A DNA stretch of 64,000 nt from Natronorubrum tibetense GA33 (lineage in GTDB: Archaea; Halobacteriota; Halobacteria; Halobacteriales; Natrialbaceae), in NCBI RefSeq assembly GCF_000383975.1, contig NZ_KB913017.1, forward strand, positions 1,061,133-1,125,132, given 5' to 3'. Under the pieces are notes generated by a model. The model worked only from the letters and a program-made list of their open reading frames with translations, made no database searches and had not been told where the DNA came from. The stretch's first letter is position 1; each line of letters opens with the position of its first letter. Made by a program: the position numbers and the translations under genes. This document shows, piece after piece, positions 23,244 to 28,030 of this stretch.

Positions 23244-25490
23244 TCAGTCGACGAAGGCGGACAGCTCCAGAAGCCGGCCGTCGCGTAGGGCGCGTCGAAT
23301 CCGGGTGCGGTCCCAGCCGAGCGGCGAGAGGACGCTTTCGCAGGCCCGCACGAGTTGGCTCGCGTAGAAGTCGGTATCGTATTCGCCGCCCGCTTCGAAG
23401 GGGAGCCGAACCCGCTCGGGACCGCGTGCGTCGTCGTCCGCGACGACGTACCGGACTGACTGGCCGGGCTGGCGGTTGATTCCGCGGCGCTCGTATCGCT
23501 CGAGCGCCGCCACGGTCCGCGTTCGCTTTCGGTACGCCGACAGCGGCTTCGATACCCGGGTCGTGATCTCGAGGGTGCTCAAATCGACGTCACCGCGCCG
23601 AAGCGAGCCGAGTCGACGCTCGAGAACGTCGCAGACGGCTTCGGGCTCGCGCTCGCGGTCGAGCGCCTCGACGAACGCACGCTGGCTCTCGGCGACGAAC
23701 GCCGGGGTACTCCGCTGGCGGAGCTCGATGCCGCGGAATTTGTACGTGCCCAACTCTCGCTTGCCGAAGTACTTCGTGAGCGCACCCGCCGATCCGGATT
23801 CGAACGCCCCTGTCCCCTCATCGTCTCCGTCCGGAATTGACTCGCGCAACGGGACGAAACAGACCCACTCGTAGCTGCCGTCGTGCTCGAGCGGGATGCC
23901 GACCTGCGCGGAGACGCGGTCGATCACGTCCTCGAGCGACTCCGGATCGACGCCCTCGCGCGGCGTCACCCAGAGGCTGTCGACGATCCCGTGGACGATT
24001 CGCCAGCCCGCGTCCTCGAGTCGGCGTTTGGCCGTCAGCGCGATGTCACGGGCGTAGGCGTTGATGGCCTCGTGACACTCGATTCGGCCGTACTTGGCGT
24101 TGCGATAGCCCTGATAGCCGAACGAGGAGACGAGGACCCACTTGATCGCGCCCGATTCGGCCCGGAGCCGGCTGGCCTCCGGTTCGGCCGGATCGTCGGC
24201 GAGTCGGTCCTTGATCGCCGCACGGTCCGCGAGCAGGGGCCCGAGGACGGCGGGGAGAAAGGCCGTATCACCGTCAACAGCGTCGGAGACGGGCTCGCAG
24301 ACCTCGTACCCGAGCTCCGGCACGCGGTGGCTATCGTCGACGAAATCCCCCGCATCGTGGGCGCAGTCGACCGTCTCCGGGCTGATCCCGTGCTCGCAGA
24401 TGATCCGCGGGTAGAGCGACGCGAAGTCGATTTCGTGGACGTCCTCGTGGAAGCCGACTTCGGGTTCGAAGGTGAACCCCCCTCGATCCGCCGCGTGCAG
24501 CGTCCGCACGTCCGAAAACCGCTCGGGCTCCCACTTGTTCTGCGGCGCGAGGACCGCCCACTCGCGGCGAGCGAGCCTGATTTGACGCGAGGTCAGCAGC
24601 GTGCCGATGCTCCCCCAGGCGGTCTCCTGTAAGGGACGAGCCGTCTGCTCGACCATGTACTCGAGCCCCGCCAGCCCCGACTGGTTCCAGAGGAAGCTGT
24701 TCGAGGTGTCGACGATTGCCCGACCCGGAACCTGATACCGCGCCGGCGAGTGACCGACCCGACCGTAGCTCTCGTAGGTGGTCTCGCCCGCTAACTGCGT
24801 CCAACCCGGCGTTCGTCCGAGGTGGAACTCGTCGGCTTTGAATCCCAGTTCCGACGCGCGTTCGGCGAGCAGCGGAACCAGGTCGCCGTGGCTCACGACG
24901 AGGACGTCCGGATCGTCGTGCTCGAGGCGGTCCCGGAGCGTCTCGAGCACCGATTGCGGATCACCGCCGCCGTCCGTATCAGCGACCGACTCACCCTCGA
25001 TTCGGAGCGCGGAAACGTCGCCGGCGGCCAGCGAGTGATCCCCGAGGTCGAGCCGCAACGTCCGCAACTCCCGCGTCGGCGTGGGATCGATCCCGCGGTC
25101 GAGACAGTACCGAAAACCGGGCTCGAGATCGACATCGAACAGTCGGAACGTTCCCGGCGCGTGGGTACCCGACTCGTGGACGCCGCGGATCTCGCGGGCG
25201 AGTTGACGAACGTCGTCGACGCGCTCGCAGTCGACTCGCAATACCTCGCTTCGCTCGCCGACGTGGGCTTCGTGGAGGTCCGTCGCCCACCGCTCGAGTC
25301 GTGTCTCGGCAACCTTGGGGTCGACCTCAAGGCGCGCACGCAGGTCCGCGAGCGAATCGTCGGGTCCCGAGACGAACAGCGAAGGCGTGTAGTCCTCGAC
25401 GAGCGTCGAGTCGGCACCCATATCGGTCAGTTGCCACTCCCGGACGGTGCCGTCCTCGAACTCGAACGCGTACGGTTCCGGTCGGCTCAT
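23244..25490 (-). CDS. polB2: Family B DNA polymerase PolB2-like, degenerate active site
   Basis: The 748-residue protein aligns with family B polymerases over its C-terminal two thirds. Motif A is EIDFASLYPRIICEHGISPE (Asp355 present). Motif B is KWVLVSSFGYQG (Lys450, Tyr459). Motif C reads HGIVDSLWV at 500-508, so the first Asp of the usual YxDTDS is Ile and only the second (Asp504) remains. No DxE exonuclease motif is visible in the N-terminal part. This matches the archaeal PolB2 group, once called inactivated and later implicated in damage tolerance in Sulfolobus. The ATG at 25490 overlaps the upstream stop (ATGA), making a coupled three-gene operon with a small protein and a RadA-like protein. 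Confidence 0.85.
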   Translation of the reverse strand: MSRPEPYAFEFEDGTVREWQLTDMGADSTLVEDYTPSLFVSGPDDSLADLRARLEVDPKVAETRLERWATDLHEAHVGERSEVLRVDCERVDDVRQLAREIRGVHESGTHAPGTFRLFDVDLEPGFRYCLDRGIDPTPTRELRTLRLDLGDHSLAAGDVSALRIEGESVADTDGGGDPQSVLETLRDRLEHDDPDVLVVSHGDLVPLLAERASELGFKADEFHLGRTPGWTQLAGETTYESYGRVGHSPARYQVPGRAIVDTSNSFLWNQSGLAGLEYMVEQTARPLQETAWGSIGTLLTSRQIRLARREWAVLAPQNKWEPERFSDVRTLHAADRGGFTFEPEVGFHEDVHEIDFASLYPRIICEHGISPETVDCAHDAGDFVDDSHRVPELGYEVCEPVSDAVDGDTAFLPAVLGPLLADRAAIKDRLADDPAEPEASRLRAESGAIKWVLVSSFGYQGYRNAKYGRIECHEAINAYARDIALTAKRRLEDAGWRIVHGIVDSLWVTPREGVDPESLEDVIDRVSAQVGIPLEHDGSYEWVCFVPLRESIPDGDDEGTGAFESGSAGALTKYFGKRELGTYKFRGIELRQRSTPAFVAESQRAFVEALDREREPEAVCDVLERRLGSLRRGDVDLSTLEITTRVSKPLSAYRKRTRTVAALERYERRGINRQPGQSVRYVVADDDARGPERVRLPFEAGGEYDTDFYASQLVRACESVLSPLGWDRTRIRRALRDGRLLELSAFVD

Positions 25491-25807
25491 TCGCGGTCGG
25501 CACCTCCGTCCGTCGTCCGTTCGTCTCGCGCCTCGAGTGCCGTCCGGTCGTCGCACTGCTCGCACACCTCGAGTTCGGCCCGCAGACGACGCAACTCGAC
25601 CTCATGGGCGAGCGCCAGCGACAGCAACAGCGCGCGTTCGGGATCCGTCGGGTTCGCGTAGCCCGCCGCGTCGGCGAACGTGCGGCCCCGATCGAACAGT
25701 CGATCGAAGTCTGCCTGGTACTCCCGGCGCAGCGCGCGGCGCATCGGTTTCCACTCGGACTCGAGTCCCCGAAGCGCGTCGCGGTACGTCGGGTTCGTTC
25801 GCCCCAT
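25487..25807 (-). CDS. Small conserved-looking protein of the PolB2 operon
   Basis: The 106-residue protein is charged and probably all-helical (RDALRGLESEWKPMRRALRR, ALLLSLALAHEVELRRLRAE), with a CEQC pair near residue 84 that could be half of a metal site. No known domain is recognised. Both ends overlap its neighbours by four bases, so it is made together with the RadA-like protein and PolB2. By position it could be an adaptor between them; that is inference. Confidence 0.7.
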   Translation of the reverse strand: MGRTNPTYRDALRGLESEWKPMRRALRREYQADFDRLFDRGRTFADAAGYANPTDPERALLLSLALAHEVELRRLRAELEVCEQCDDRTALEARDERTTDGGADRE

Positions 25808-26562: not shown

Positions 26563-26598
26563 GATAAGCGACGGAGCACCGTTTCCGAAATTCCGAAA
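26563..26598 (-). promoter_or_regulatory. Promoter of the RadA-like/PolB2 operon with paired TTCCGAAA boxes
   Basis: On the minus strand a CTTATC box (26563-26568) lies 25-30 nt before the start codon at 26538. Directly upstream of it are two tandem TTCCGAAA octamers (26583-26590 and 26591-26598, plus-strand reading), i.e. 45-60 nt before the start. The position just outside the TATA/BRE region is where haloarchaeal activators bind. Confidence 0.65.
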
Positions 26599-26945
26599 AC
26601 AAGCAGGAATCGGCTAACAGGTCCGGACGTACTCGTTTCGAGAGGAGTAACGCCGCCCAAGGACGATTCCGAAATCCGAAACGGTGGTCGGTTCGGCGAC
26701 GCTGTGACGGTTTTGTCACTATACTCTTTACCGGTGACGTAGCCGGTGGGAGCGCCCGCGCAGTGTCTCTCCGGAACCACCACCTTCCGTCCGCTCCGCG
26801 GGTTCTCGGTCGCGTACGAGACGTCCTTTCGCAACCGTTCCCGGTCATTTCAGCGATCGGTGCACTGATACCCTTCGTATCGTGATGATGGGTATCCCAC
26901 TCACACTGGCAACGAGTACGTACTGACGCGATAGCCGAGACCCGT
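26599..26945. other. Rest of intergenic region between orc1 and the PolB2 operon
   Basis: The full gap is 26539-26945. Besides the two box pairs it has GTCAC...GTGAC half-sites at 26715-26738 around an AT-rich centre. No gene is recognisable; short frames on both strands lack coding character. Confidence 0.4.
26667..26681 (-). promoter_or_regulatory. Second, imperfect TTCCGAAA pair
   Basis: TTCCGAAA (26667-26674) is followed directly by TCCGAAA (26675-26681), about 130 nt before the RadA-like start. It could be an auxiliary site for the same factor or the promoter element of something I cannot identify. Confidence 0.4.
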
Positions 26946-27968
26946 CTATTCGCGGTCGACCGCGTCGTCGTCGATAATTCGGTAGGTCCGCCCGCGGCGT
27001 TCGCCGACGGCCTCGATCAGGTCGTAATGGACCATCTTCGTCAGGTAGTTGCGCAGCGTGCGGTTCGTCTTCGGGTCGGTGACCCGCCGCTCGTACTCGT
27101 CGTAGAGGTCGCCGGGTTCGATCTCGCCGACGTCCGCGACGATATCGTACAGCACCCGCTGGTGTTCGATCAGCCCCTCGACGGTTTTGCGTCGGATCGC
27201 CGTTCGCGCGTCCGGAATCGCCGCCTCGAGCACGTCGTCGGTCACGCACTCCTGGCCCTGCTGGCTCGCTCGCCGGGCCGCCGATCGCAGGATCCCGATC
27301 CCGACCCTGGCATCCCCAGACGCGGCGTCGGCGATCGTTCGCAACTGCTCGTCGCTGACACAGCCTGGCTCGAGGGCCTTGTCCGCCCGTTCCGCGAGGA
27401 TGGCCGTGAGTTCCTCGGTGCCGTAGCGATCGAACCGAACGCGGGTTCCAGCACGGAGCCGCGACCGCACCCGATCGTCGAAGCTCGCGAACAACTCTTC
27501 CTCGCGGTTGGCGATCAAGACGAGCGAGACGTGACTCAGTCGGTGGAGATCGTACAGCGCTGCGGTCTCCTCCAACTGGTCGACCTCGTCCAGAATGACG
27601 ACGATTGGGCGGTCGTCCGTCTCGCGCAGTCGGCCGAACAGTTCGTCCTTCGGCGTCGATCGATGGATGTCGAACGTCCGCCCGACCGCCTCGAGAACGC
27701 TGTAGAGCACTCGGAATCGGGTGTACTCCTGCCAGCAGTTGACGTAGGCGACCTCGACCGCGGGCTCCTGTTCGCGGAGCTGAGCGAGCGTGTAGCGGGC
27801 GATGCAGGTCTTTCCGACGCCCGTGGGTCCAAAGCAGAAGGCCGGATCCGCCCGTCGGCCGTACAGCAGCGGCTCGAGGGACTCGGAGAGGAGGTTCACC
27901 TCGTCGTGGCGGTGGACCACCTCGCTGGGCACGAAATCCTCGCGCAGGACCCGGTCGTCGACGATCAC
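26946..27968 (-). CDS. orc1: Orc1/Cdc6-family AAA+ protein
   Basis: The 340-residue protein has an N-terminal LREDFVPSEVVHRHDEV, Walker A CFGPTGVGKT, Walker B IVVILDEVDQL, sensor 1 LVLIANREE, an arginine-finger region VRSRL and a C-terminal winged helix (VLYDIVADVGEIEPGDLYDEY ... RTLRNYLTKMVHYDLIE). Orc1/Cdc6 proteins recognise origins and load MCM; some paralogues act as transcription factors, such as Sulfolobus Orc1-2 in the damage response. This one is shorter than typical replicative members, and I see no convincing origin repeats next to it. The GTG start at 27968 is supported by the family N-terminus and a TATA-like box 25-32 nt upstream. It lies 407 bp downstream of the PolB2 operon's promoter side, on the same strand. 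Confidence 0.88.
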   Translation of the reverse strand: MIVDDRVLREDFVPSEVVHRHDEVNLLSESLEPLLYGRRADPAFCFGPTGVGKTCIARYTLAQLREQEPAVEVAYVNCWQEYTRFRVLYSVLEAVGRTFDIHRSTPKDELFGRLRETDDRPIVVILDEVDQLEETAALYDLHRLSHVSLVLIANREEELFASFDDRVRSRLRAGTRVRFDRYGTEELTAILAERADKALEPGCVSDEQLRTIADAASGDARVGIGILRSAARRASQQGQECVTDDVLEAAIPDARTAIRRKTVEGLIEHQRVLYDIVADVGEIEPGDLYDEYERRVTDPKTNRTLRNYLTKMVHYDLIEAVGERRGRTYRIIDDDAVDRE

Positions 27969-27992
27969 AGCCGCTCTGTTCTCCGTGGACCG

Positions 27993-28030
27993 TTGTAAAC
28001 GGTGGCGTCCGGCTTCCGAAACTTCCGAAA
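27993..28030 (-). promoter_or_regulatory. orc1 promoter with paired TTCCGAAA boxes
   Basis: On the minus strand GTTTACAA (27993-28000) lies 25-32 nt before the GTG start. Two TTCCGAAA octamers separated by one base (28014-28021 and 28023-28030, plus-strand reading) lie 46-62 nt before the start. Motif and spacing match the PolB2 operon promoter. Confidence 0.65.

Follow-up and report, generated by a model that had tools for sequence, protein, structure and literature searches.

The promoters of two neighboring transcription units of Natronorubrum tibetense GA33 share a tandem repeat of the octamer TTCCGAAA. This cis element is real and conserved over great evolutionary depth, and it marks out a small regulon consisting of a divergent Orc, the PolB2 mutasome, and integrases. 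Both units lie in the window, by which we mean the whole 64,000-nucleotide stretch that was analyzed. In our view, the TTCCGAAA pairs are probably the operator of this regulon and the adjacent divergent Orc its regulator, acting most likely by activation and in answer to DNA damage. The sequence directly gives the element, where it lies, which genes it precedes, how widely it is conserved, and how it co-varies with the Orc; binding by the Orc, activation over repression, and the damage signal are what we infer.

The features of the two units are as follows:

23244..25490, minus strand: PolB2, a B-family DNA polymerase in which the first motif-C aspartate is replaced (IVDS)
25487..25807, minus strand: PPB2, a small PolB2-cassette protein that begins with MGRT, a motif described in PMC11791011
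25807..26538, minus strand: iRadA, a RadA/Rad51-fold protein without recognizable Walker A; order and nomenclature are those of PMC11791011
26563..26568, minus strand: TATA-like box CTTATC of the mutasome operon, between element and start
26583..26598, minus strand: tandem element of the iRadA-PPB2-PolB2 promoter, mRNA strand TTTCGGAATTTCGGAA, no gap
26667..26681, minus strand: distal copy TTTCGGATTTCGGAA, 5' of the iRadA element
26946..27968, minus strand: orc, a divergent AAA+ protein of the Orc1/Cdc6 family (340 aa) that has a winged helix and Walker A/B; the proposed regulator
27993..27999, minus strand: TATA-like box TTTACAA of orc, between element and start
28014..28030, minus strand: tandem element of the orc promoter, mRNA strand TTTCGGAAGTTTCGGAA, 1-nt gap; kept before clade-A orc genes

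The proposed regulator belongs to the Orc family (Pfam Cdc6_lid and AAA, TIGR02928 above the cut-off) as a divergent member, scoring 193 bits against TIGR02928 compared with 300 to 446 bits for 13 canonical paralogues of the same genome and having a shorter wing and a shorter stretch from Walker B to sensor 1. Its predicted structure has the origin-bound Sulfolobus Orc1 (2qby) as its best match. About 15 Orc paralogues are present in the genome, and the element was found only at the PolB2-linked one. iRadA gave no Pfam match, while its predicted structure matches DMC1, Rad51, and RadA. With an iRadA of Rad51 fold and dead ATPase site, a PPB2 starting with MGRT, and PolB2, the operon is the PolB2 mutasome cassette of PMC11791011; the three genes and their order are the same, with orc as a neighbor and SRAP nearby. 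The authors of that study found orc1/cdc6 to be enriched near polB2 in archaea and connected it with damage regulation, whereas a cis element, a haloarchaeal regulon, and mobile-element targets do not appear in its main text.

The original prediction described two octamers in tandem before each unit, with a gap of 0 or 1 nt and just outside a TATA-like box at a similar distance from the start codon. All four were located on the plus strand (26583-26590, 26591-26598, 28014-28021, and 28023-28030), and since orc and iRadA lie on the minus strand, the gene-ward reading of the element is TTTCGGAA(N)TTTCGGAA. The near end of the element is 44 nt from the iRadA ATG (26538) and 45 nt from the orc GTG (27968), with the boxes in between. 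What had been missed is a fifth octamer at 26667, which overlaps a further copy (TTCCGAAATCCGAAA, 26667-26681) on the upstream side of the iRadA element. When the whole 4.93-Mb genome was searched, TTCCGAAA pairs with a gap of 0 to 2 nt occurred at exactly two places, the orc and iRadA promoters, and the reversed control gave 0 matches. There are 155 single octamers (84 + 71), from which chance alone would give about 0.007 pairs; the claim that the co-occurrence is unlikely to be accidental is borne out. The genome totals are two strict and three relaxed sites, and all three are at regulon members.

A scan of haloarchaeal genomes, as had been proposed, revealed 30 strict pairs in 28 of 125 family genomes, each of them upstream of an orc orthologue or iRadA. 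On the mRNA strand, the general form of the element is WWTCGGAA-N(0-1)-WWTCGGAA, directly 5' of BRE/TATA, and it stands out as a conservation island in both promoters when the upstream regions of 60 further orc loci are compared. The relaxed form was matched in 79 of the 125 family genomes and the reversed pattern in none (0/125). The distinct family sites that we collected number 148, of which 56 lie before an orc, 27 before an iRadA, 33 before an integrase operon, and 32 before other or unassigned genes, with 0 antisense; because many orc loci had been fetched as orc loci, these proportions lean towards orc, a lean of which the 30-site strict and the 79-genome relaxed counts are free. The spacing at orc was 44 to 47 nt at every family site, and the TTA core of the TATA-like box stood at a fixed distance from the element (134 sites). 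Distal half-sites of the same orientation cluster 60 to 89 nt upstream at many sites, which suggests that binding is cooperative or looped at some of the promoters. Across the class, the relaxed form was present in 113 of 391 genomes and the reversed pattern in 0 of 391. About half of 20 out-of-family places that we read were orc genes, most with an iRadA and PolB2 cassette behind them, and several of these cassettes had their own copy of the element in the iRadA promoter. The element is present in the promoters of both orc and PolB2 and recurs class-wide at orc/PolB2 cassettes. It is not common genome-wide, strongly prefers promoters, and is kept at orthologues, so the sequence patterns that would have spoken against the original prediction did not appear.

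Integrase operons of mobile elements are a third target class, absent from the original prediction. Behind the third relaxed site of the genome stands an operon whose last gene encodes a tyrosine integrase, a relative of the SNJ2, HHPV4, HRPV9, and LSV-48N integrases (37-48% identity), and this related integrase in a short operon makes the operon SNJ2-type. Relatives show the same arrangement of element and integrase, with a conserved leader that starts at the predicted transcription start. We searched the 125 family genomes for this leader blind, without reference to the element, and found it in 44 genomes. Nearly all leaders read carry the element with two or fewer mismatches at one fixed position, including that of the third site; the exceptions are four with none or a chance-level match and one with a shortened form only. 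The clade-A Orc is present in 67 of the 125 genomes, and the leader was found in 42 of these 67 compared with 2 of the 58 genomes without the Orc (genus-stratified odds ratio 23, p 1.6e-6). One exception to this association (G077) has an Orc remnant only (L483), with an intact element upstream and an integrase leader without the element, and a genome without the Orc (G039) nevertheless has the element at an integrase. The SNJ2-type integrase operons of pleolipoviruses have a related integrase and, in SNJ2 and Humcor2, a hairpin leader before the operon, but the SNJ2, Humcor2, LSV-48N, and HHPV4 loci that we read were without the element. The leader pattern had 0 matches in viral contigs, and searches of phages and plasmids with leader DNA gave no meaningful match; the relaxed-pair scan of viral contigs (120 stretches from unrelated viruses) was left out of the results.

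As an observation on the leader itself, L211:1319-1460 (minus strand) and about 60 homologous family sequences form a conserved 5' leader of SNJ2-type integrase operons. Its features are a long GC hairpin showing compensated pairs, a second hairpin (GGTCCC...GAGACC) whose end is at an ATG, and a conserved short ORF (HGKSTGYCN) that shares ATGA with the gene after it. Rfam held no significant match to the leader.

We propose that the winged helix of the Orc binds the tandem direct repeat directly upstream of BRE/TATA, often with the assistance of a distal copy 60 to 90 nt further up. Bound Orc would most likely activate its own gene and the iRadA-PPB2-PolB2 mutasome, while mobile elements with SNJ2-type integrases would have acquired the operator and in this way tied their integrase operon to the host Orc. 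The signal would most likely be DNA damage or stalled replication, perhaps sensed via the ATP state of the Orc. That the Orc controls itself and the polymerase cassette, as originally suggested, is the best reading of an element that is common to both promoters, conserved class-wide, and follows the Orc type. Such a shared switch for the archaeal mutation polymerase, with orc and the PolB2 mutasome under a common element, would explain the long-noted linkage of orc and polB2 and offers a possible way for damage to induce integrative elements in archaea. It also puts forward a definite operator, a regulator, and a set of targets, all open to testing in tractable strains.

In Sulfolobus, Orc1-2 binds the promoter of its own gene, Dpo2 is not induced by damage without it, and specific binding requires the winged-helix residues R381 and R383 (PMC9738581). 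The two systems are alike in having an Orc1/Cdc6 paralogue (a non-initiator in Sulfolobus and probably so here) that combines AAA+ and winged-helix domains, an element in its own promoter, and PolB2 (Dpo2) as a target, and the R-x-R pair in the winged helix there is matched by R-[GA]-R in the wing here. They differ in that the Sulfolobus element (DDRE) is a single ANTTTC hexamer whereas ours is a tandem 8-bp repeat, TWTCGGAA, and in that SNJ2-type integrases are targets here, where no Ups/Ced genes were seen. The original prediction had linked the two through ANTTTC. This hexamer can be read in the boxes of the present genome, but it is found in register in only 74 of 334 half-sites (167 sites); the conserved core is instead TCGGAA, varying with the Orc type, and the link through the hexamer has to be given up. 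Since the recognition hexamer differs, the haloarchaeal system can be placed with Orc1-2 only tentatively; in its target logic it appears to be Orc1-2-like and bacterial-SOS-like. With bacterial SOS (LexA box; imuAB-dnaE2, prophage induction), it would share an autoregulated regulator, a cassette of a RecA-like protein and an error-prone polymerase, and an operator common to integrases, although there is no LexA here and the regulator would be an Orc/Cdc6 AAA+ protein, probably an activator. The best reading is an Orc-controlled SOS-like regulon that is tapped by mobile elements and related to the Sulfolobus Orc1-2 system. A wider picture, which could as easily prove right as wrong, is a haloarchaeal SOS-like response by a repurposed replication initiator, in which an autoregulated Orc would induce the error-prone PolB2 mutasome after damage, orthogonal plasmid Orc-operator pairs would evolve new specificities via the wing, and integrative elements would have tied their integrase promoters to the circuit of the host so as to leave damaged cells.

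DNA damage is the most likely signal, judging from the kinds of target (a translesion mutasome, with SRAP nearby, and integrases) and from the analogy with Sulfolobus Orc1-2. It is possible, if rather unlikely, that an Orc-run regulon is real but answers to something else, such as conjugation, arrested replication, incoming foreign DNA, or the control of copy number. The targets include integrases and plasmid-borne cassettes, and the published UV array papers do not highlight polB2: those on Halobacterium report induction of radA1 and no SOS-like response, in a text without mention of polB2 or orc. Moreover, a different UV-B element, TTTCACTTTCA, has been described for Halobacterium radA1, top6B, vng17, and vng280 (PMC2556686). 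The radA of our genome (L505, G000:C1:1738381) carries this published element about 50 nt upstream, and the window's element was not found there, which would make the regulon a narrow one that leaves recombination aside. Like our element, TTTCACTTTCA is a short tandem repeat about 50 nt before the start codon and just outside the TATA box in a haloarchaeon, but it has another sequence, a 6-bp period, and other genes. Against a signal other than damage, earlier work reports PolB2 operons to be damage-inducible, and SRAP, an abasic-site protector, adjoins the same Orc in several plasmid cassettes.

The mode of action is suggested by where the element lies. It stands upstream of BRE/TATA without overlapping them, and the place just upstream of BRE is the usual activator site in archaea; this position, the Sulfolobus Orc1-2 precedent, and SRAP together favor an Orc activator that answers damage or replication arrest. 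We regard it as unlikely that the Orc governs the same regulon as a repressor, which from its site upstream of BRE would block or loop the promoter until ATP hydrolysis or damage released it in the manner of LexA. An autoregulated regulator with a mutasome and mobile-element targets is the LexA pattern, the distal copies 60 to 89 nt upstream would permit looping, and the near absence of integrase leaders from genomes without the Orc is compatible with de-repression and loss. The activator position of the element argues against repression, however, and the Sulfolobus paralogue activates (PMC9738581).

The co-variation of element and Orc bears on which protein binds. Plasmid cassettes of other haloarchaea have a different element, which is likewise a tight repeat in the same position, and within one cassette orc and iRadA have the same variant in their promoters: CCCGGAAACCCGGAA in Halosegnis, ACCCGGAAATCCGGAA in Halorientalis, a GTTCTGGCA-type pair in Halalkalicoccus CGA53, and TTCTGGAAGTTCCGGAA and TTCCGGAAGTTCTGGAA in Halorussus. 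The resemblance between orc and iRadA elements was greater within than between cassettes (permutation p 0.001, or p 0.004-0.02 with the main type reduced to one member). On plasmids of Halobacterium and Halorubrum in which polB2 stands apart from iRadA, a copy of the element precedes polB2 itself. The wings of the compared Orcs, taken as residues 322-327 in the loop that joins the final two strands of the predicted structure, carry R-[GA]-R or R-D-R. Of 121 Orcs with readable promoters, the 29 with S-[RQ]-D-R wings all had CCGGAA/CTGGAA and none had TCGGAA, while those with other wings comprised 73 with TCGGAA, 3 with CCGGAA/CTGGAA, and 16 with no element, in a comparison whose Fisher test ignores phylogeny; L517, a TRDR wing with TCGGAA, is a counterexample. 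This is the pattern that a regulator and its own operator should produce. Because the sequence of the element follows Orc type and wing, with orc and iRadA largely in step, the PolB2-linked Orc is very probably the binder and autoregulator of the element. The natural series of wing and operator variants may also allow one to read how Orc proteins recognize DNA.

It seems to us quite improbable that the element is bound by a transcription factor encoded elsewhere in most of these genomes, with orc and PolB2 both under its control. The case for the Orc as binder is itself a sequence-based one, some genomes keep the element without the Orc, and about 16 of the compared Orcs, including those of Natrialba (g14), have no recognizable element in their own promoter while sites persist elsewhere in those genomes. 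Against an unlinked factor, the sequence of the element tracks the Orc type and wing residues of its own cassette, and no other DNA-binding gene constantly linked to the cassettes was seen.

A point against binding by the Orc is that two 8-bp repeats with a spacing of 8 to 9 bp leave little room for a pair of Orc monomers of the kind known from origins. Haloarchaeal origins do adjoin orc/cdc6 genes and have lineage-specific origin recognition boxes, and the Orc model matches an origin-bound Orc1, but the very improbable idea that orc and the boxes form a replication origin, with the PolB2 copy as a by-product, was set aside on box position and target set: the pair is tight, on the same strand, and at a fixed distance from TATA, it also occurs at iRadA, separated polB2, and integrase operons far from orc, these sites showed no inverted pair of origin boxes flanking an AT-rich region, and the Orc concerned is the divergent one among its paralogues.

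Several further sites were noted. The element lies about 44 nt before the start of three unknown protein families, of 182-193 aa (L178/L180/L190), 110 aa (L195/L199/L207), and 106-153 aa (L163/L168/L172), and of an HNH-repeat protein (L162/L164). An RNase_H_2 protein has the element in one genome (L171:3501), and in a number of plasmid cassettes the gene after PPB2 is RNase-H-like (L500:4551-5195; L503:6887-7543), hinting at a fourth mutasome-associated component. In Halobacterium NRC-1 (L487, pNRC200 281587-298728), polB2 is directly downstream of an IS200/IS605 transposase with a TTTTACTTTCA box 52 to 62 nt upstream of its start, which fits the UV-B-inducible npa/vng6361 of PMC2556686. Finally, several complete genomes (G061, G063, G074, G094, and G030) are rotated to begin at the divergent Orc, perhaps as assembly tools take it for an origin-linked orc.
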